Assembly (NCBI GenBank): GCA_036003045.1
Contig: DASYSS010000100.1
Coordinates: 1-44,431, forward strand
From: Gemmatimonadaceae bacterium
GTDB lineage: Bacteria; Gemmatimonadota; Gemmatimonadetes; Gemmatimonadales; Gemmatimonadaceae
Direction: 5' to 3'
Length of the DNA: 44,431 nt
A program made the translations under genes and the position numbers. Below are positions 14,394 through 23,965 of this stretch, piece by piece. The notes under the pieces were generated by a model. It saw only the letters and a list, made by a program, of their open reading frames with translations, had not been told where the DNA came from and searched no databases. Numbering within the stretch: position 1 is the first letter of the stretch; each line of letters starts with the position of its first letter.

Positions 14394-14990
14394 CTATCTC
14401 AGCGCCTCCATCGGATCGATGCGCGCCGCCCGCCGCATGGGAGCCAGCGCCGCCAGCACGGCGCACAGGGCGAGCACCAATCCAGCGACGGCCAACGTGA
14501 GCGGATCGGTCGCCGCAACGCCGAACAACTGCGAGGCGATCAGTCTATGTGTGGCGAGCACGCCGGCGGCTCCGAGACCAATGGCGACAGCCGTAACGCC
14601 CGCCGCCTCGCGCAACACGACGCGGACCAAATCGCTCGGCAAGGCCCCGAGCGCCGCGCGGACTCCAAGCTCCTGCGTCGCTGCGCGACCGAGTAGCTGA
14701 TGACGCCGTAGGGCCCCACGGCCGCCAGGAGGAGCGCGAGCGTCGCGAATGCTCCGAGCGTGATCATGCTCATCCGTTGCTGCTGCGTGGCAGCGGTGCG
14801 CACGAGACGATGCGGGCGCCGAGCATCTGGAAGTAGTTGTTCGCGACGATGCGCTTTGCCGCAACCGGGCGTCACGCAGCAGATCCCACGCAGCCGGCGT
14901 CGTGATGGCCTGTCCGTCGACGCCAATGGTTGCCGCGCACGTCGCCGGCGAGTTGGAACGCCGATAGCTTGACGGTGTCGAAGAGCCGAC
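14394..14990 (-). pseudogene. Remnant of an ADOP/MacB-FtsX permease (C-terminal part, frameshifted)
   Basis: The last 100 residues are a clear FtsX-like C-terminus: a membrane segment (VTAVAIGLGAAGVLATH), FGVAATDPLTLAVAG, another membrane segment and the terminal RRAARIDPMEALR typical of ADOP permeases. Just upstream, a different frame carries the preceding motif (SMITLGAFATLALLLAAVG, PYGVISYSVAQR), and a third frame near 14950 carries a fragment like the usual GDVR region. The pieces line up in order only if one allows frameshifts near 14700 and further upstream, and the N-terminal 600 residues are missing. It is therefore a decayed copy; the intact homologue in this window is at 21212-23872. 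The left boundary of the remnant is approximate. Confidence 0.8.
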
Positions 14991-15010
14991 CTAGCCACCC
15001 CGAGCATCCT

Positions 15011-15874
15011 ATGGTCCGCATCCGGTCGATCATCGTGGGCGCGTTGTTTCCGGCGGCGCTTATCGCCCAATCATCGTCATCCGATAAAGGGCCCAACAAC
15101 ATTCGCGCGTCGTTCGCGTACTTCGCCGAACACTATGGCCGCCTGATCGTCGCCGCGCTCGACTCCATCCCGGCCACGAAATACGGCTTCAGCCCGACGC
15201 CGGCGCAGCAAACAGTTGGATACATCGCGCAACACCTCGAGGATGCCAATTTCGGCCTGTGTTCACGACTCGGCAGACCCGATCCACGCGCGGCGGCGGA
15301 ATGGCGTATCAGCGATTCGGTTCGAGCGAAATGGCCCAAGGACACGCTCGTTGCGCGAGTCCGCGCGTCGATCGTCTTCTGCACCGCGGCCATCGGCCAG
15401 CTCAATGACCGGCGCATTGGGGAAGTGGCCACAATGCAATCCGATTCCGGCAGAACCATCTTGCCGGCGCGCGTGCTGCTGGCTTTCACGACGGACTTGG
15501 CCGAACACTACGCGCAGCTCGCATCGTATATGCGGCAGCTTGGCTTGGTTCCGCCATCGGCAGCGCCGCCGAGCAAAGCCCGCGTCGCCATCGACCTGCC
15601 CGTCAGCACGCTCGCCGCGTACGCCGGCAAGTACAACTTGTCTCCGGCCTTCGCGGGAGTCGGCGTGATGCTCGACGTGCACGTCCGCAACGGCGCCTTG
15701 TATCTCACGCCCAGCGGACAGCCGGAAGCGCGGCTATGGCCTGAGAGCGCGACGGATTTCTTTTTCAGGGAGATCGACGCCCAGGTCAGCTTCACGCGAA
15801 ACGCGAGCGGTGTGGTGACGGGGCTCGTGCTTCATCAAGGCGGCGAGAATCGGGTCGGGCCGAAAGTGAAATAG
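15011..15874 (+). CDS. Secreted DinB-fold protein with a C-terminal DUF3471-like domain
   Basis: 287 aa. The ATG at 15011 gives a signal peptide (RSIIVGALFPAALIAQ). Residues about 25-185 form a four-helix DinB bundle: FAYFAEHYGRLIVAALDSIP, the first metal-ligand helix with GYIAQHLEDAN and the last with DLAEHYAQLASYMRQLG, where the His residues are the expected metal ligands. Residues about 200-287 are a small beta domain (TLAAYAGKYNLSP to VTGLVLHQGGE) like the DUF3471 tail of secreted hydrolases. DinB proteins are metal-dependent thiol transferases or hydrolases in known cases; the substrate here is unknown. The gene overlaps the decayed permease upstream and is convergent with the NmrA-like gene, 15 bp apart. 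Confidence 0.8.
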   Translation: MVRIRSIIVGALFPAALIAQSSSSDKGPNNIRASFAYFAEHYGRLIVAALDSIPATKYGFSPTPAQQTVGYIAQHLEDANFGLCSRLGRPDPRAAAEWRISDSVRAKWPKDTLVARVRASIVFCTAAIGQLNDRRIGEVATMQSDSGRTILPARVLLAFTTDLAEHYAQLASYMRQLGLVPPSAAPPSKARVAIDLPVSTLAAYAGKYNLSPAFAGVGVMLDVHVRNGALYLTPSGQPEARLWPESATDFFFREIDAQVSFTRNASGVVTGLVLHQGGENRVGPKVK

Positions 15875-18355: not shown

Positions 18356-18931
18356 CTATCGCGATGGTGGCCGGCTGTCCGGCGGGATGATGCCGTTCAT
18401 CCGAAGGTATTCCACCAACTGACCGTAGTGATCGAATGAATGCGCCACCGCGTCGATGGCGAAAGACAGCCGATTCCTTTGCCATGCGCTCGACGTCGCG
18501 AGCGGGGCGGTGACGTTGGCCGAATTGATTGACGCGGCCGATCGATGCAGCGCGGCAAACGAACCTTGCAGATACGTCATGATCTGCACCTTCGTTCGCA
18601 CCGAGTCCGGACCCGTCTCGTTCAACATCTCGGCGCTCGGGGTCTCTCGAAGGATCAACGCCGCCGCCCGGTAATTGTTGGCGGCAAGGTGCTTCACCTG
18701 CTCCCCGAAGGTGCGCACGCCTTCGAAGTCACCGAGCGCGGTCGATGGCCGAAATGAATACCGCTCCGCCGGCATCGCATCCGCGAGCGGCACCACATGC
18801 TGTTCCGTGTTCGCGATCCACGAATCGACGGTCTCGGCGATCGTTCCTTGCCGCGACGGCCGGATGGTTTGCGACCCGGCGGTGGCCGCTTCGATGAGAA
18901 ATAGGATGGCGGCACGTGAAAGTCGGTTCAT
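18356..18931 (-). CDS. Secreted DinB-fold protein
   Basis: 191 aa. A hydrophobic N-terminus (LSRAAILFLIEAATAGSQ) suggests export. The rest is a DinB four-helix bundle: WIANTEQHVVPLADAMPAER, FGEQVKHLAANNYRAAALI, and AHSFDHYGQLVEYLRMNG followed by IIPPDS, the usual end of this family. The His residues of EQVKHL and SFDHYGQL are the expected metal ligands. It resembles the exported protein at 15011 but lacks its extra C-terminal domain. Function unknown beyond the fold. It is divergent from the MerR gene. Confidence 0.85.
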   Translation of the reverse strand: MNRLSRAAILFLIEAATAGSQTIRPSRQGTIAETVDSWIANTEQHVVPLADAMPAERYSFRPSTALGDFEGVRTFGEQVKHLAANNYRAAALILRETPSAEMLNETGPDSVRTKVQIMTYLQGSFAALHRSAASINSANVTAPLATSSAWQRNRLSFAIDAVAHSFDHYGQLVEYLRMNGIIPPDSRPPSR

Positions 18932-19081
18932 GAGCTCTCCGGAGTAGCCCGAGTCAGCGCGGTCCCGACGACTCTAACGCTTCAAGTCGACTCGAGCGCA
19001 AGCCGGGCTCCTGGAACACGCCGGTCCGCGCGCGCCCACCCACAGCCTGGCTTGCTGAACGCGGATGGCGTACAATGGCTC

Positions 19082-19483
19082 ATGGCCCAGCTCACAATCT
19101 CGGAGGTCGGCAATCGCGTTGGCCTCCGGCCGTCGGCGCTCCGCTACTACGAGGAGATCGGTATTCTCCAGCCGCCCGCCCGCGTACACGGCCAGCGACG
19201 CTATGACAACGCGGCGCTCCATCGTTTGGCGGTGATTCAGCGGGCTCGCTCCCTTGGGTTTTCACTACGCGAGATTCGAACGCTCCTCCACGAATTCCCT
19301 ACAGACGCTCCCCCGGCGGAGCGTTGGGCGACCCTGGCGCGACAGAAGCTCGATCAGCTGGCAACCCTCATGTCGCGCATGAAGGACAGGGAGTCGTTGC
19401 TTCAGCGCCAAGGGACGTGCACCTGTAAATCGCTCGATGAGTGCGGACGCTGTCTCACGGAAGCGAGTGTCACGGAGTCCTGA
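19082..19483 (+). CDS. MerR family regulator with a C-terminal Cys cluster
   Basis: 133 aa. Residues 4-72 are the MerR winged helix (TISEVGNRVGLRPSALRYYE, then IGILQPPARVHGQRRY), followed by the dimerisation helix and a Cys-rich tail: C113, C115, C121 and C124, spaced CxCx5CxxC. SoxR uses CxxCxCx5C to hold a [2Fe-2S] cluster; here the same intervals occur in a different order, so an iron-sulfur or metal site is likely but its kind is open. MerR proteins activate promoters with an overlong 19-20 bp spacer, and two such promoters occur 1.4 kb downstream at 20873-20947. The ATG at 19082 is chosen because the domain starts there. Confidence 0.9.
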   Translation: MAQLTISEVGNRVGLRPSALRYYEEIGILQPPARVHGQRRYDNAALHRLAVIQRARSLGFSLREIRTLLHEFPTDAPPAERWATLARQKLDQLATLMSRMKDRESLLQRQGTCTCKSLDECGRCLTEASVTES

Positions 19484-19510: not shown

Positions 19511-19897
19511 TTACCCCCCGTCAGGTGGCTGCCACAGCTCGACTTTATTGCCCTCTGGGTCGACCACCCAACCGAACTTTCCGTACTCGGATTCGTCGAC
19601 CCGTTCTTCGACTTGCACGCCCTCCGATCGAAGCGCGGCAAGCAGTGCGTGCAGGTCGGCGACGCGGTAGTTGACCATGAACGGCGCAGCGCTTGGAGCG
19701 AAGTGTTGGGTGTCGGCAGGAAAGAGGGTCCACGCCGTCGTCCCAGCCCCTTCGGGATTGTCTGGCCCGTTCCAATCGAAGGCCGCGCCGCCCCACGTCT
19801 GGACGTCGATGCCCAGGTGGGTCTTGTACCAAGCACCCAAACTCTTTGGGTCCTTGGCCTTGAAGAAGATGCCACCGATACCTGTCACTCGCTTCAT
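19511..19897 (-). CDS. VOC (glyoxalase/bleomycin-resistance fold) family protein
   Basis: 128 aa, one complete vicinal-oxygen-chelate unit: GIGGIFFKAKDPKSLGAWYK at the N-terminus, a central SAAPFMVNYRVADLHALLAA and the C-terminal GWVVDPEGNKVELWQPP, where the Glu before LWQP is a usual metal ligand. The protein is cytoplasmic. Such single-domain proteins include small-molecule lyases, isomerases and antibiotic-binding proteins; the specific substrate cannot be told. It is convergent with the MerR gene (27 bp) and downstream of the secreted hypothetical gene on the same strand (79 bp gap), so it may share that gene's MerR-type promoter. Confidence 0.88.
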   Translation of the reverse strand: MKRVTGIGGIFFKAKDPKSLGAWYKTHLGIDVQTWGGAAFDWNGPDNPEGAGTTAWTLFPADTQHFAPSAAPFMVNYRVADLHALLAALRSEGVQVEERVDESEYGKFGWVVDPEGNKVELWQPPDGG

Positions 19898-19976: not shown

Positions 19977-20831
19977 CTACGCGCACCGGGCCAAGAAGGC
20001 GTGGGCGAACGCCGCTAGGTCAGTGAGGGACAATACCTGGCGTGCGCTCACGACGTATTCCCGTGCGAGACGATCGAAGCATAACTGGGCTCTTTCTCGT
20101 GGAGGACCGCCCACGCTTGGGAGGCCGTCGATGTACGCGCCAGTCGTATCCAATGTGAGGGATAACAGCGTCCTCCGTTGAGACGCGAAATCGTAGCGGT
20201 ACGTTGCGTTGCCGTCGCAAGCGTAGTAGCCGTCTCGCAAGCGAAGGCGGAGCGAGTCCGGAACGGATACGCGCGCCAGTTTGATGACGTCCCTCGCCGT
20301 CGTCGCGACCCGAAAGACCACCCCTGAATGGTCGACCGTGTACCCACTCAGGCCGCCCCCGCAGCGGTCTCCGGCGGCGATATCGCGAACGACGGCAACG
20401 CGATCACTCTCGAGCCGCACCCAGAAGAGGTTCGAGAACTGGCCACTGCCATATCCATAGGCCTCAGTGGCAACGAGAAACCGATCGCCGGCCGAAGCCA
20501 GAGCCCGATAGCCGATGATCCGCGGAGTGTCCGGGTCGCGATGTTTGGCCCGACGCCAGCCGTCGGCGTCGGCTTGAATTGCGACTACGGTATCGGTGCA
20601 GGAGGCAAGGAGGATCGGTTTGACGCGATCGAGACGCTCCGCATCGAAGTCGAGGCAGAAAGGATGTAAAGCCTTACCGTGGTACACGAGCCGAGCCGTC
20701 GCCGAGTCTCCCGTCACCACGACCCCAGTTGTTTGCGCGGCCGATGGCAATGGCGGCAGCCAAATGACAATGCCAAACGCGACTGGAATGGCGACGCGCA
20801 TCACTCGCCAACGAGGAGTAATCAATTGCAC
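19977..20831 (-). CDS. Secreted hypothetical protein, 284 aa
   Basis: An N-terminal signal peptide (VAIPVAFGIVIWLPPLPSAAQ) precedes a largely beta-stranded protein with motifs such as VVAIQADADGWRRAKH and RIIGYRALASAGDRFLVATE, which resemble blades of a propeller. Four Cys residues (LHPFCLDF, LASCTDT, AGDRCGG, YYACDG) may pair. The C-terminus is helical (ERAQLCFDRLAREYVVSARQ). I do not recognise the family. A MerR-type promoter (20873-20903) lies directly upstream on the same strand, giving a leader of about 35 bases, so it is probably induced by the neighbouring Cys-rich MerR protein. Confidence 0.65.
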   Translation of the reverse strand: MQLITPRWRVMRVAIPVAFGIVIWLPPLPSAAQTTGVVVTGDSATARLVYHGKALHPFCLDFDAERLDRVKPILLASCTDTVVAIQADADGWRRAKHRDPDTPRIIGYRALASAGDRFLVATEAYGYGSGQFSNLFWVRLESDRVAVVRDIAAGDRCGGGLSGYTVDHSGVVFRVATTARDVIKLARVSVPDSLRLRLRDGYYACDGNATYRYDFASQRRTLLSLTLDTTGAYIDGLPSVGGPPRERAQLCFDRLAREYVVSARQVLSLTDLAAFAHAFLARCA

Positions 20832-20872: not shown

Positions 20873-20903
20873 ATCGTACCACCTGAAGTACGCTCGAGGT
20901 CAA
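20873..20903 (-). promoter_or_regulatory. MerR-type promoter with a 19-bp spacer, for the secreted hypothetical gene
   Basis: Read on the minus strand: -35 TTGACC, a 19-base spacer holding the imperfect dyad ACCTCGAG-CGTA-CTTCAGGT, and -10 TACGAT. Overlong spacers with a central dyad are the hallmark of MerR-family activated promoters, and the dyad resembles the SoxR box type (CCTCAAGT...ACTTGAGG). Confidence 0.6.
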
Positions 20904-20916
20904 TCCGACGCTGCCC

Positions 20917-20947
20917 TTGACCTCACGCCCACTTGAGGTGCGAGAAT
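20917..20947 (+). promoter_or_regulatory. MerR-type promoter with a 19-bp spacer, towards the ADOP permease
   Basis: -35 TTGACC (20917-20922), a 19-base spacer containing ACCTCA-N8-TGAGGT, and -10 GAGAAT (20942-20947). The core CCTCACGCCCACTTGAGG matches the SoxR-type consensus at most positions. It points to the permease 260 bases downstream and is back-to-back with the 20873-20903 promoter. Confidence 0.55.
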
Positions 20948-20969: not shown

Positions 20970-21071
20970 ATGAGACCCGATTCTACCACCAAGCCCGCCG
21001 TTTCGCTGTCGTACCCGTCGACCGCGCGCCAGCATCGCCTTCAGCGTTGGAACACGGGTACGCCATGGTGA
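20970..21071 (+). CDS. Possible 33-aa leader peptide
   Basis: First ATG after the plus-strand MerR-type promoter; 33 codons ending in TGA at 21069-21071, Ser/Thr/Pro/Arg-rich, with no ribosome site worth the name. It precedes two mutually exclusive hairpins and the permease start, an arrangement seen in attenuated operons. It may equally be chance. Confidence 0.2.
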   Translation: MRPDSTTKPAVSLSYPSTARQHRLQRWNTGTPW

Positions 21072-21120
21072 CCGGCCCCCTCGAGGCGCGATTCGTCTCG
21101 GACGAGCCGGCGACCACGAC

Positions 21121-21187
21121 GGTCGCCCTGCGGCGATGAACCTCCACTTGCTTACCGAGAGGGCGACCGGTATTCTCATCTCGGTAA
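21121..21187 (+). promoter_or_regulatory. Overlapping alternative hairpins in the permease leader
   Basis: GGTCGCCCT (21121-21129) can pair with AGGGCGACC (21160-21168), and TTACCGAGA (21152-21160) with TCTCGGTAA (21179-21187). Both stems are perfect 9-mers, and they share base 21160 and interleave, so only one can form at a time. The second ends 24 bases before the permease start. There is no T-run, so if regulatory it would act on translation. Confidence 0.4.
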
Positions 21188-21211
21188 CCGATATGACCTT
21201 GAGGCATGCCC

Positions 21212-23872
21212 ATGCGCGTCTCTCGATGGCCGGCCATGTTCGCGCTTCGCCTGCGCACGCTCCTTCGCCGTGCGGACGTCGAGCGCGATCTCGAAGACGA
21301 GATTCGGGATCACATCGAGCAACAAACCCAGCTCAACGTCGCGCGCGGCATGAACCCGGTCGCCGCGCGGCAGGCCGCGCTGGTGGCTTTCGGCGGCGCG
21401 TCGCGCATCAAAGAAGAGGTGCGTGACCAGCTGCGACCCGCGGCCCTCGCCGAGTTGACGCAGGATCTGCGATACGCGTGGCGGATGTGTCGGCGAACGC
21501 CGGCACTCACGGCAGTCGTCGTCGTGACGATAGGAACAGCGGTGGCGCTGGCGACGTCGGCCTTTAGCGCCGTCGACGGCGTGCTTCTCCGTTCACTTCC
21601 GTATAGAAGCGCGGAGCGCCTGGCGCTCGTTTGGGACACTCAGCGGCAAAAGGGAATCGCGCAACTCGACCCCGTGTCGTTCACCAACGCCATGGATTGG
21701 CGCCGCGACGTCAGGGCGCTGCAGTCCTTGGCCGTCTTCAGTTGCACGCCGCGGCCGATCATTACCACGAGCGGAGTCGCGGATCGGACGACGCAAATGG
21801 AGGTGTCACCGGATTTCTTCGCCGTCATCGGCGCAACGCCGCTGCTTGGCCGGCTGCTCGAGCCAAGTGACTTCGCGCCCGGCGCGGCGCCGGTGGTCGT
21901 CATCACGCACGCATTGTGGCGGCAGCGCTTGAACGCCAATCCGGATGTCGTATCGTCGCGCCTATCGGTCGACGGCGTGCCGGCAACCGTCATCGGCGTT
22001 CTCAGGCCGGAGTTCACGGCTTTACCGACGATGCTCGCATGTCAGCCGGAGATGTATCGCCCGTTGCCGTCGCGCTACGACGACGCGCAGCGATCGTGGA
22101 GCTTTCTCAAGACGATCGCGCGGCTGGCTCCGGGCGCGACGATCGAAAGCGCGCAGCGAGAGCTCGACGTCGAAAGCGCGCGCCTTGCGGCGGCGTTCCC
22201 GGAAGCCAATCGCGGACACCGCGCCGTGGTCGTGAGCCTCGGCGACTACGTGACGAGACCGCTCGAGGGAGAGCTGCTGCTCGTTCAAGCGGGCGCCGTG
22301 TTCGTGCTCCTCATCGCATGCGCCAACATCGCCGGCCTGATGCTGACGCGCACCGCGGCTCGTCAACGCGAGCTCGCGATTCGAATCGCGCTTGGTGCGA
22401 GCCGCGCGCGTCTGGCGCGACAGCTGGCGACCGAGTGCGGGTTGCTGGGAGCGGCCGCGTTCGTGCTCGGCGCCGGCCTCACGTCGATCGGCGCAGTCGC
22501 CATCGCTCGACAACTCGGCGACGTGTTACCCGATCCGCGCGGAGTCTCGGCCGACTGGCGAGTTCTCGCGTTCTCGATTCTCGCCTCGTTTGCCGCGACG
22601 ATCGTGTTCACGATTGCGACGGTGGCCGCGGCCTTCCGAGGGCCGGGGCCGCTCTCGTCGCTGAGGGACGGTGGGCGCACGTCCGCCCCAGGTCATGCAG
22701 GCGTTCGCCGCGTCGTCGTCGCCGCCCAGCTCGCAATGGCGACGATCGTTCTCGTGGGCGCCGGGTTGCTCGCGCGAAGTTACGTAAAACTACGCGCGGT
22801 TCCCTCGGGGTTCGATCCGAGAGGTGTGGTGACGGCGCGCGTCACGCTGCCCGATACGCTCTATCCGCGGGGCGAGCGTCAGGTGCGATTCTTCGGCGAA
22901 GTATTGAATCGCATCTCCGCCGTGCCGGGCGTGACCGCCGCGGGAGCGGTGAGCGTGCTTCCGGAGTCGCCGAATTTCGACAGGACCGACGCGAAAGTCG
23001 TCGGACGAACGTATGCGCCCGGCGAAGTGCCGAGTCCAGACGTGTATCGCGTCACGCCGGGCTACTTCGAGGCGATGGGTATTCCGCTCGACGCGGGACG
23101 GCGATTTACCCCGACGGATGACGACCAGCATCCGCTCGTCGCGATCATCAACGAGACGATGGCACGGGCTCTCTTTCCGGACGGGAGCGCGGTCGGGAAG
23201 CGCATTTGGAGCGGGGCGGGCCAGGCGGAACGTACGGTGGTCGGCGTCGTGGGCGACACGTATCAGTACGGACTCGATCGCTCCCTGACCATGCAACTGT
23301 ACGTGCCGCACGCGGATAATTCGGGCGGCGACCTCACGCTCGTGGTTCGCGCGGCGAGGGACGACGCAGGGGCCAACATCGCTGCGCGGGTTCGCGATGC
23401 GGTGCGGGACGTGGACCCGGGCGTGCCGGTCGATGAGATCCTGACGATGAAGCAGGTGCTGGCGCAGTCGGCGGCTCGCCACCGCGTCATCGCGCAGGTC
23501 TCGATCGCGTTCGCGATTGGCGCGATCGCGCTCGCGGCGCTCGGACTCTACGGCGTGATCGCGTTCGGCGTGTCGGCGCGAACGCCGGAGATCGGCTTGC
23601 GTATGGCGCTGGGAGCGACGAGCCGAGCGATCATCGCCAACGTCGCGGCAGATGTGGGTCGGATCGTCATCGTCGGGATTGTTGTCGGCCTGTCGTTGTC
23701 GGTGTGGCTGGCGGGCTTATTATCGCCGCTCCTTTTTCGTGTTTCGGCGCGGGATCCGCTGGCGTTCTTCGGGTCCTGTGCCGCGCTCACCGTCGTAGCC
23801 GCGCTCGCGGCGCTGCTCCCGGCGCGACGGGCCGCGCGTGTCAGTCCTGCGATTGCGCTGCGCTGCGATTGA
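21212..23872 (+). CDS. ADOP-type ABC transporter permease (MacB/FtsX family)
   Basis: 886 aa, full length for the acidobacterial duplicated orphan permease group. The N-terminal 75 residues are the helical prefix domain (LRLRTLLRRADVERDLEDEI). Then come a first FtsX unit with a membrane helix near 95-115, a periplasmic MacB-PCD domain (DFFAVIGATPLLGRLLEPSD), three membrane helices (QAGAVFVLLIACANIAGLML onward), and a second PCD/FtsX unit ending LLPARRAARVSPAIALRCD. The ATG at 21212 is preferred over 21206 because GAGG lies 7 bases upstream. These proteins resemble the macrolide/lipoprotein exporter permease but are encoded without an ATPase partner, as here. Cargo unknown. It follows a MerR-type promoter and a structured leader, and ends at a 17-bp repeat array. 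Confidence 0.93.
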   Translation: MRVSRWPAMFALRLRTLLRRADVERDLEDEIRDHIEQQTQLNVARGMNPVAARQAALVAFGGASRIKEEVRDQLRPAALAELTQDLRYAWRMCRRTPALTAVVVVTIGTAVALATSAFSAVDGVLLRSLPYRSAERLALVWDTQRQKGIAQLDPVSFTNAMDWRRDVRALQSLAVFSCTPRPIITTSGVADRTTQMEVSPDFFAVIGATPLLGRLLEPSDFAPGAAPVVVITHALWRQRLNANPDVVSSRLSVDGVPATVIGVLRPEFTALPTMLACQPEMYRPLPSRYDDAQRSWSFLKTIARLAPGATIESAQRELDVESARLAAAFPEANRGHRAVVVSLGDYVTRPLEGELLLVQAGAVFVLLIACANIAGLMLTRTAARQRELAIRIALGASRARLARQLATECGLLGAAAFVLGAGLTSIGAVAIARQLGDVLPDPRGVSADWRVLAFSILASFAATIVFTIATVAAAFRGPGPLSSLRDGGRTSAPGHAGVRRVVVAAQLAMATIVLVGAGLLARSYVKLRAVPSGFDPRGVVTARVTLPDTLYPRGERQVRFFGEVLNRISAVPGVTAAGAVSVLPESPNFDRTDAKVVGRTYAPGEVPSPDVYRVTPGYFEAMGIPLDAGRRFTPTDDDQHPLVAIINETMARALFPDGSAVGKRIWSGAGQAERTVVGVVGDTYQYGLDRSLTMQLYVPHADNSGGDLTLVVRAARDDAGANIAARVRDAVRDVDPGVPVDEILTMKQVLAQSAARHRVIAQVSIAFAIGAIALAALGLYGVIAFGVSARTPEIGLRMALGATSRAIIANVAADVGRIVIVGIVVGLSLSVWLAGLLSPLLFRVSARDPLAFFGSCAALTVVAALAALLPARRAARVSPAIALRCD

Positions 23873-23880
23873 GAACGAGA

Positions 23881-23965
23881 CGTCCTAAGGGCGCCGACGT
23901 CCTAAGGGCGCCGACGTCCTAAGAGCGCCGACGTCCTAAGAGCGCCGACGTCCTAAAGGCGCAAC
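23881..23965 (+). repeat. 17-bp tandem repeat array, four units plus a partial one
   Basis: Direct units CGTCCTAAGRGCGCCGA: two with GGG, two with GAG, then a degenerate copy (CGTCCTAAAGGCGCAAC). It begins 8 bases after the permease stop. It is the same family, orientation and subvariant order as the array at 11941-12042 (15 of 17 positions shared). Confidence 0.9.

Follow-up and report, generated by a model that had tools for sequence, protein, structure and literature searches.

The window studied here is the whole stretch of 44,431 nucleotides, which belongs to a 5.37-Mb draft genome of a soil-type bacterium, probably one of the Gemmatimonadaceae. Between positions 18356 and 23872 it carries a gene for a MerR-family regulator, three sites resembling MerR-type promoters (here called PdinB, Psec and Pplus), and the genes that lie around them:

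18356-18931, minus strand: gene for a DinB_2-fold protein with a signal-like N-terminus, divergent from merR; residues H81 and H164-x3-H168
18971-19001, minus strand: PdinB, a third MerR-type promoter; -35 TTGCGC at 19001-18996, 19-nt spacer, -10 TAGAGT at 18976-18971; dyad at 18980-18997, between merR (19082, plus) and the divergent DinB_2 gene (18931, minus)
19082-19483, plus strand: merR, for a regulator of 133 aa with Pfam domains MerR_1 and MerR-DNA-bind
19511-19897, minus strand: gene for a glyoxalase/VOC-like protein, flanked by merR and the orphan gene
19977-20831, minus strand: gene for an orphan protein of 284 aa with a signal-like N-terminus and 6 Cys
20873-20903, minus strand: Psec, a MerR-type promoter; -35 TTGACC at 20903-20898, 19-nt spacer at 20897-20879, -10 TACGAT at 20878-20873; dyad at 20882-20899
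20917-20947, plus strand: Pplus, a MerR-type promoter; -35 TTGACC at 20917-20922, 19-nt spacer at 20923-20941, -10 GAGAAT at 20942-20947; dyad at 20921-20938
20971-21072, plus strand: 33-codon ORF seen in the sequence, the nearest ORF to Pplus
21148-21191, plus strand: promoter-like element upstream of the ADOP gene; TTGCTT, 17 nt, TATTCT
21206-23872, plus strand: gene for an ADOP-family duplicated permease of 888 aa, downstream of Pplus

Psec and Pplus lie back to back, with 13 bp between their -35 boxes and, from the coordinates, 39 bp between their dyad centres. An earlier, sequence-only reading had proposed for each strand a TTGACC box exactly 19 bases from a -10 box, with a SoxR-like dyad in the spacer, and direct reading of the DNA confirmed both promoters at these places. 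Among spacer lengths from 15 to 21, only 19 yielded a -10 box with 4 of 6 matches at either site, and a sigma-70 scan with spacers of 16 to 18 returned none of the three window promoters. The SoxR operator core is CCTCAAGTNNACTTGAGG; it was matched at 13 of 16 positions in Psec, 14 in Pplus and 13 in PdinB. The sequence-only reading did not contain PdinB, which was found by matrix and position scoring.

A spacer of 19 or 20 bp between -35 and -10 defines the promoters of the MerR family (COG0789), according to sections of PMC1526738. All three window sites had 19 bp. Each spacer contained a palindrome, though an imperfect one (5, 6 and 6 of 9 pairs in the window dyads; the upstream operators found in relatives had 6-9). 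A regulator gene was linked to them as well, for PdinB lies 81 nt from merR. Its position was kept in the two closest relatives, G118 of the same genus (loci L037/L020) and the acidobacterial locus L004. The G118 counterpart, TTGCGT TCAAGCCGGCTTGAAGTGC TAAGCT, precedes a DinB gene with 76% protein identity, and its operator TTCAAGCCGGCTTGAA is a 16-bp perfect palindrome. The L004 counterpart, TTGACT TAAAGTCGACTTGAAGTTG TAGGGT, precedes a gene for a signal-bearing RLCCPF protein. As for conservation of the pair at 20873-20947, a genus-wide DNA search gave no match before about position 21134 in the other five genomes, and the sole homologue of the orphan protein, in G115, is truncated at a contig end.

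With a weight matrix built from 20 operators at the merR loci of relatives (window excluded; the operators had originally been chosen by a score containing the SoxR-like core), Psec scored 32.2, PdinB 30.6 and Pplus 24.7. Elsewhere in the window the highest score was 8.4, the maximum in 60 simulated order-3 Markov windows was 14.2, and the leave-one-out scores of the 20 training operators ranged from 29.0 to 47.9. A position score combining the -35 box, the -10 box at 19 bp, dyad symmetry and the core was computed at every position. Among 88,800 positions the three sites scored 30, 28 and 27 and the next independent place 22; the value 23 belonged to one of the three sites read backwards. Under a slightly different version of this score, the maxima across 30 order-2 Markov windows were 21-26, and the lowest upstream operator of the relatives (L025, 26) equalled the top of these windows. 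The 19-bp spacers, the dyads and the matrix scores far above background support the MerR-type nature of both promoters of the pair.

Genes behind the three promoters

The dinB gene starts 39 nt past the -10 box of PdinB. Its product exceeded the Pfam gathering score of DinB_2 (29.6 vs 24.8 bits), and its signal-like start, judged by eye, suggests that it is exported. The six DinB homologues at E<=1.6e-30 (the window's, three in G118 and one each in G116 and G131) were all found in loci with a merR gene and an operator. Among 26 weaker DinB matches with loci (flanks of at most 1.5 kb), none had an operator; their best scores were 19-23, compared with 27-33. The link between this DinB group and the operator is thus specific. 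All 6 operator-linked DinBs were DinB_2 by Pfam, and the His triad that marks the DinB superfamily (H81, H164 and H168) was invariant in all of them. DinB, which the sequence-only reading had not named, is the best-supported partner and target of the window MerR. The association spans two supported MerR clades, that of the window and that of L054/L055/L061/L062, whose relation is left open by the tree. The presence of the same DinB group with two MerR clades suggests partner exchange or repeated recruitment. A second DinB-like protein of the window (14930-15874) fell just under the DinB_2 cut-off and has a DUF3471 domain; there was no high-scoring MerR-type site nearby.

The orphan gene starts 41 nt past the -10 box of Psec; at other loci, target ORFs chosen by eye started 6-82 nt past the -10 box there. 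The earlier proposal that the minus promoter serves a secreted Cys-containing protein fits this distance, the signal-like start and the 6 Cys, from which export would be expected. The protein had no Pfam or NCBIfam match at E<=0.001, and among 178 other genomes of the family it had one partial homologue (G115, 47%). No merR match at E<=1e-15 was found in G115, a genome 79% complete. The model of the orphan protein, from a two-row alignment, had a mean pLDDT of 48.8. The VOC-like gene between merR and the orphan gene had no MerR-type site of its own.

On the plus strand, Pplus had been described as facing the ADOP permease. The orientation is as described, and the permease itself is well assigned by NCBIfam TIGR03434 (760.2 vs 622.3 bits). 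Its membership in the MerR unit is uncertain, with a gap of 258 nt from the -10 box of Pplus to its start and an element of its own at 21148-21191. This element overlaps a perfect 9-bp inverted repeat, TTACCGAGA...TCTCGGTAA, at 21152-21187 with an 18-nt gap. A similar element lies upstream of an ADOP gene in G115 (L078, about 1505-1550; the ADOP is cut by the locus end), and a more divergent copy upstream of a PadR gene in G118 (L123, about 1457-1413, minus). The full element pattern, with up to 3 mismatches, was present in 2 of 6 genomes of the genus. The form CTTGCTTACCGAG...CTCATNTCGGTNACCGA, which precedes ADOP or PadR genes at these three places, looks like an operator-promoter common to a few ADOP loci. 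Because the element is directly upstream of the window's ADOP gene and recurs before ADOP or PadR genes, ADOP is probably under its own control. Tandem repeats around CGTCCTAAGRGCGCCGA were seen by eye at about 23884-23960, directly after the ADOP stop codon.

In G118, one contig carries an operator between the divergent dinB and merR genes, with merR followed by padR and ADOP; on another contig, the order is operator, dinB, merR, padR and ADOP (the PadR and ADOP labels were confirmed). PadR and ADOP genes thus follow merR at 2 of 3 such G118 loci. An ADOP neighbourhood alone is weak evidence because these genomes contain many ADOP genes; the window's own genome has 7 over the threshold used, the window's included. 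An orthologous pairing of ADOP with MerR was rejected, since none of the ADOP homologues listed for the genus, which are 32-39% identical, is a close orthologue. The idea that a concealed or degenerate gene lies in the Pplus-ADOP interval was also rejected, since no homology was found among the loci compared or in the DNA of the genus; the 33-codon ORF likewise had no homologue in either search.

It is possible, at somewhat under even odds, that only Psec and PdinB are real MerR targets, Pplus being decayed or non-productive and ADOP depending solely on a promoter of its own, perhaps of the PadR type. Pplus had the lowest matrix score of the three window sites and a poor -10 box, which begins with G. 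This explanation would also account for its distance from ADOP, the separate recurring element and the want of a recognisable gene between them. However, its score was still far over that of the simulated windows, the perfect ACCTCA...TGAGGT pair is retained in its dyad, and ADOP comes after merR in two G118 loci.

The regulator and its relatives

The regulator ends in C113-x-C115-x5-C121-x2-C124 (C-x-C-x5-C-x2-C) and has no Cys elsewhere. The sequence-only reading had noted a MerR with an unusual four-Cys tail encoded 1.4 kb from the promoter pair. The gene is there, with all four Cys in the C-terminal tail, but only part of the tail is unusual. Its core, C-x-C-x5-C, is ordinary, being present in all 21 members of the subfamily (21 distinct MerRs, window included; four SoxRs and four outliers were left out), while the fourth Cys at that spacing was found only in the window and in its G118 orthologue. 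The subfamily has a scattered distribution in the phylum, with a match at E<=1e-25 in 14 of 395 genomes and a close orthologue in one other genome of this phylum sample (G118); one member was met in an acidobacterium. The closest relatives found were those of G118 (67% identical) and L004 (53%), which grouped with the window MerR at 100/99 support. Among the best 5000 records of a plasmid collection, all MerR matches had less than 60% identity.

For 17 of the 21 subfamily MerRs, a 19-bp-spaced operator was found within 400 bp upstream (score 26-32). The remaining four have an operator elsewhere in the locus: L038 (27) and L039 (28) in G118 (C26 and C15, respectively), and L053 and L030 (28 each). 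In L053 the operator is upstream of an RLCCPF gene, which is followed by merR. A 19-bp-spaced operator was also found with all four SoxRs.

With L030, L041 and L050 set aside, the genes after these operators were classified by reading. DinBs with signal-like starts were found in the window, L037, L038, L039, L040 and L044; thioredoxins in L028, L042, L043 and L051 (in the last, behind an RxCC[PA] gene), with Pfam confirming L042 and L028; and small RxCC[PA] proteins in L004, L040, L045, L046, L051, L053, L058, L059 and L060. The operator of L056 precedes another kind of protein. None of the four RxCC[PA] proteins scanned reached a Pfam cut-off. RxCC[PA] genes directly after MerR-type operators include L004:5358-5840, L045:5742-6092, L046:5829-6203, L040:5791-6120 and L053:1141-1476. 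Beside the merR-RxCC[PA] pair of L045, rhodanese-, sulfite-exporter- and persulfide-dioxygenase-like genes were recognised by eye (L045:6194-8991), a hint of sulfur chemistry. In the open-licence literature, we found no description of this MerR subfamily system, no paper joining MerR, a DinB family protein, thioredoxin and operon, and no paper joining MerR, PadR, Gemmatimonas and permease.

Several features would fit a true SoxR, with a [2Fe-2S] cluster in the tail and a unit that responds to redox-cycling drugs. SoxR (TIGR01950) was the best NCBIfam match of the regulator, each of the three operators shares 13 or 14 of the 16 positions of the SoxR core, and the genome search gave no further Cys-tailed MerR_1 protein. 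The match to SoxR was 68.6 bits, however, against a cut-off of 116.9 bits, which the family SoxR tested (L031) passed with 195.5 bits. The regulator matched 13 NCBIfam models and reached the cut-off of none of them; CueR (TIGR02044) gave 61.5 vs 147.4 bits and MerR 58.9 vs 150.85. The cluster ligands of Escherichia coli SoxR are C119, C122, C124 and C130, according to sections of PMC9909328. C-x-C-x5-C aligns with the last three of these, and the first, C119, is absent from the window MerR. All four SoxRs of the family carry C-x2-C-x-C-x5-C and form their own 100/100 clade, which excludes the window MerR, and the fourth Cys is absent from L004, a close relative. A true SoxR is quite unlikely in our view, and we rejected it on Cys count, NCBIfam score and clade. 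Since it falls below the NCBIfam cut-offs and differs in Cys pattern and clade, the regulator would act like an activator of the MerR/SoxR kind and yet be none of SoxR, CueR, CadR and MerR.

Binding of the three sites by another MerR-family protein of this genome is very improbable. The MerR_1 search did find two further proteins, but neither has the C-x-C-x5-C tail: one lies in a frame of 276 codons and has 2 Cys, neither of them in a tail motif, and the other is 241 aa long and has a single Cys. Moreover, the third operator stands beside the window merR itself, in a position that its two closest relatives have preserved. These results support the earlier proposal of the 19082-19483 product as the likely regulator.

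Three patterns were searched across the genome. The pattern TTGACCTCNNGNNNACTTNAGG was derived from Psec and Pplus themselves and is hence post hoc; searched with up to 3 mismatches, it matched exactly at these two sites and nowhere with 1 or 2 mismatches. It had eight matches with three mismatches, which is at or below background (reversed control, 16), one of them being PdinB (18980-19001). The subfamily pattern TTGACNTCNAGTNNACTTGANG, with up to 3 mismatches, had three matches in the genome, namely the three window sites with 2 mismatches each; its reversed control also gave three. When up to 3 mismatches were allowed, the bare core CCTCAAGTNNACTTGAGG occurred at 7 places, 3 of them clustered within one 2-kb stretch around merR; at the 19-bp spacing, none of the other 4 had more than 3 of 6 matches in either the -35 or the -10 box. 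Because the reversed control of the bare core gave 16 places, the core is not enriched genome-wide, as would be expected if the pattern were a chance match, but that explanation is practically negligible and was rejected on the 2-kb clustering of three sites, all with -35 and -10 boxes at 19 bp, and on matrix scores with nothing comparable elsewhere in the window or in the 60 simulated windows.

Proposed circuit and comparison with known systems

With a probability of about 0.8, we read Psec and Pplus as real MerR-type promoters in a three-promoter regulon of the 19082-19483 MerR. At the level of sequence, the comparisons establish how the promoters are built, that both the promoter class and the place of PdinB are conserved, that the regulator is unique among the MerR_1 proteins found, and how large the regulon is at the pattern used. 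On this reading, a MerR dimer would sit on each 18-bp dyad, between the -35 box and a -10 box placed too far away by the 19-bp spacer, and would keep the promoter inactive without inducer. Occupation or modification of the Cys tail (C113, C115 and C121, with C124) would then make the dimer kink the DNA and bring the -35 and -10 boxes into register for sigma-70 RNA polymerase. The conserved core target, an exported protein of the DinB fold, would be made from PdinB, and the orphan exported Cys protein from Psec. Pplus would give a transcript starting about 250 nt upstream of ADOP, which may supplement the ADOP expression driven by that gene's own promoter.

Sections of PMC9909328 and PMC1526738 describe a 19-20-bp spacer as making MerR promoters weak and a ligand-bound MerR dimer as kinking the centre of the dyad, thereby realigning the boxes. 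We infer by analogy that this family mechanism of binding and activation by distortion applies to the window promoters. The two start points expected from Psec and Pplus would be about 88 bp apart, so that two polymerases would just fit and might influence each other.

Our best guess for the inducer is a soft metal or a thiol-reactive compound, since thioredoxin and RxCC[PA] genes are among the targets of related MerRs. These target genes suggest redox or metal induction, and together with the restriction of Cys to a single loop they would make superoxide less likely than a soft metal or a thiol-reactive compound. More speculatively, and doubtful as it stands, the regulator could represent a sensor class apart from SoxR, CueR, MerR and CadR. 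Such a class would have three to four Cys all in one C-terminal loop and, as its dedicated output, an exported envelope module in which a DinB-fold metalloprotein that keeps its His triad is joined by the orphan Cys protein and ADOP. It would couple a cytoplasmic thiol or soft-metal sensor to extracytoplasmic thiol chemistry.

The three sites appear to form a testable stress circuit under a Cys-tailed MerR. What began as a pattern seen by eye is now a small regulon, in which one regulator probably acts through three operators of the 5.4-Mb genome, and it offers a handle on what signal-bearing DinB proteins, the orphan Cys protein and perhaps ADOP respond to. An operator type and a Cys-tail type are now defined for a MerR subfamily scattered across the phylum.

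The window system resembles SoxR and soxS-type promoters in the 19-bp spacer, a dyad like CCTCAAGT..ACTTGAGG, the last three tail Cys and the MerR fold. It differs from them in the missing first cluster Cys, the score under the SoxR cut-off and the separate clade, and in having three local targets with signal-like products.

With the CueR/HmrR, CadR/PbrR and MerR divergons it shares a regulator gene adjoining a palindromic promoter with a 19- or 20-bp spacer, and a C-terminal Cys loop. The spacing C113-x7-C121 is that of Cys112-x7-Cys120 in CueR. In contrast to these metal regulators, the window MerR has an additional C115 (and C124), the targets found include no metal ATPases or mer genes, and the dyad is different. 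In MerR and CadR the partner protomer supplies a third ligand (Cys82' and Cys77', respectively), according to sections of PMC9909328, whereas the window MerR has no Cys outside the tail that could correspond to it.

The DinB protein can be compared with the thiol transferases of the DinB/STL superfamily, such as BstA, whose His triad is H67, H160 and H164 in the part of PMC5815605 that describes it. The DinB_2 fold and three invariant His with H-x3-H spacing are common to both; unlike BstA, the window DinB has a signal-like N-terminus.

The window system can also be set beside the unnamed C-x-C-x5-C MerR subfamily of the phylum (L050, L051, L054, L058 and others), which shares the tail core, the operator TTGACTTCAAGTnnACTTGAAGnnnTAGnnT and a site at the merR locus. 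Many of these relatives drive thioredoxin or RxCC[PA] genes, whereas the window MerR would drive DinB, the orphan Cys protein and possibly ADOP, and the window has, in addition, a back-to-back promoter pair away from merR.
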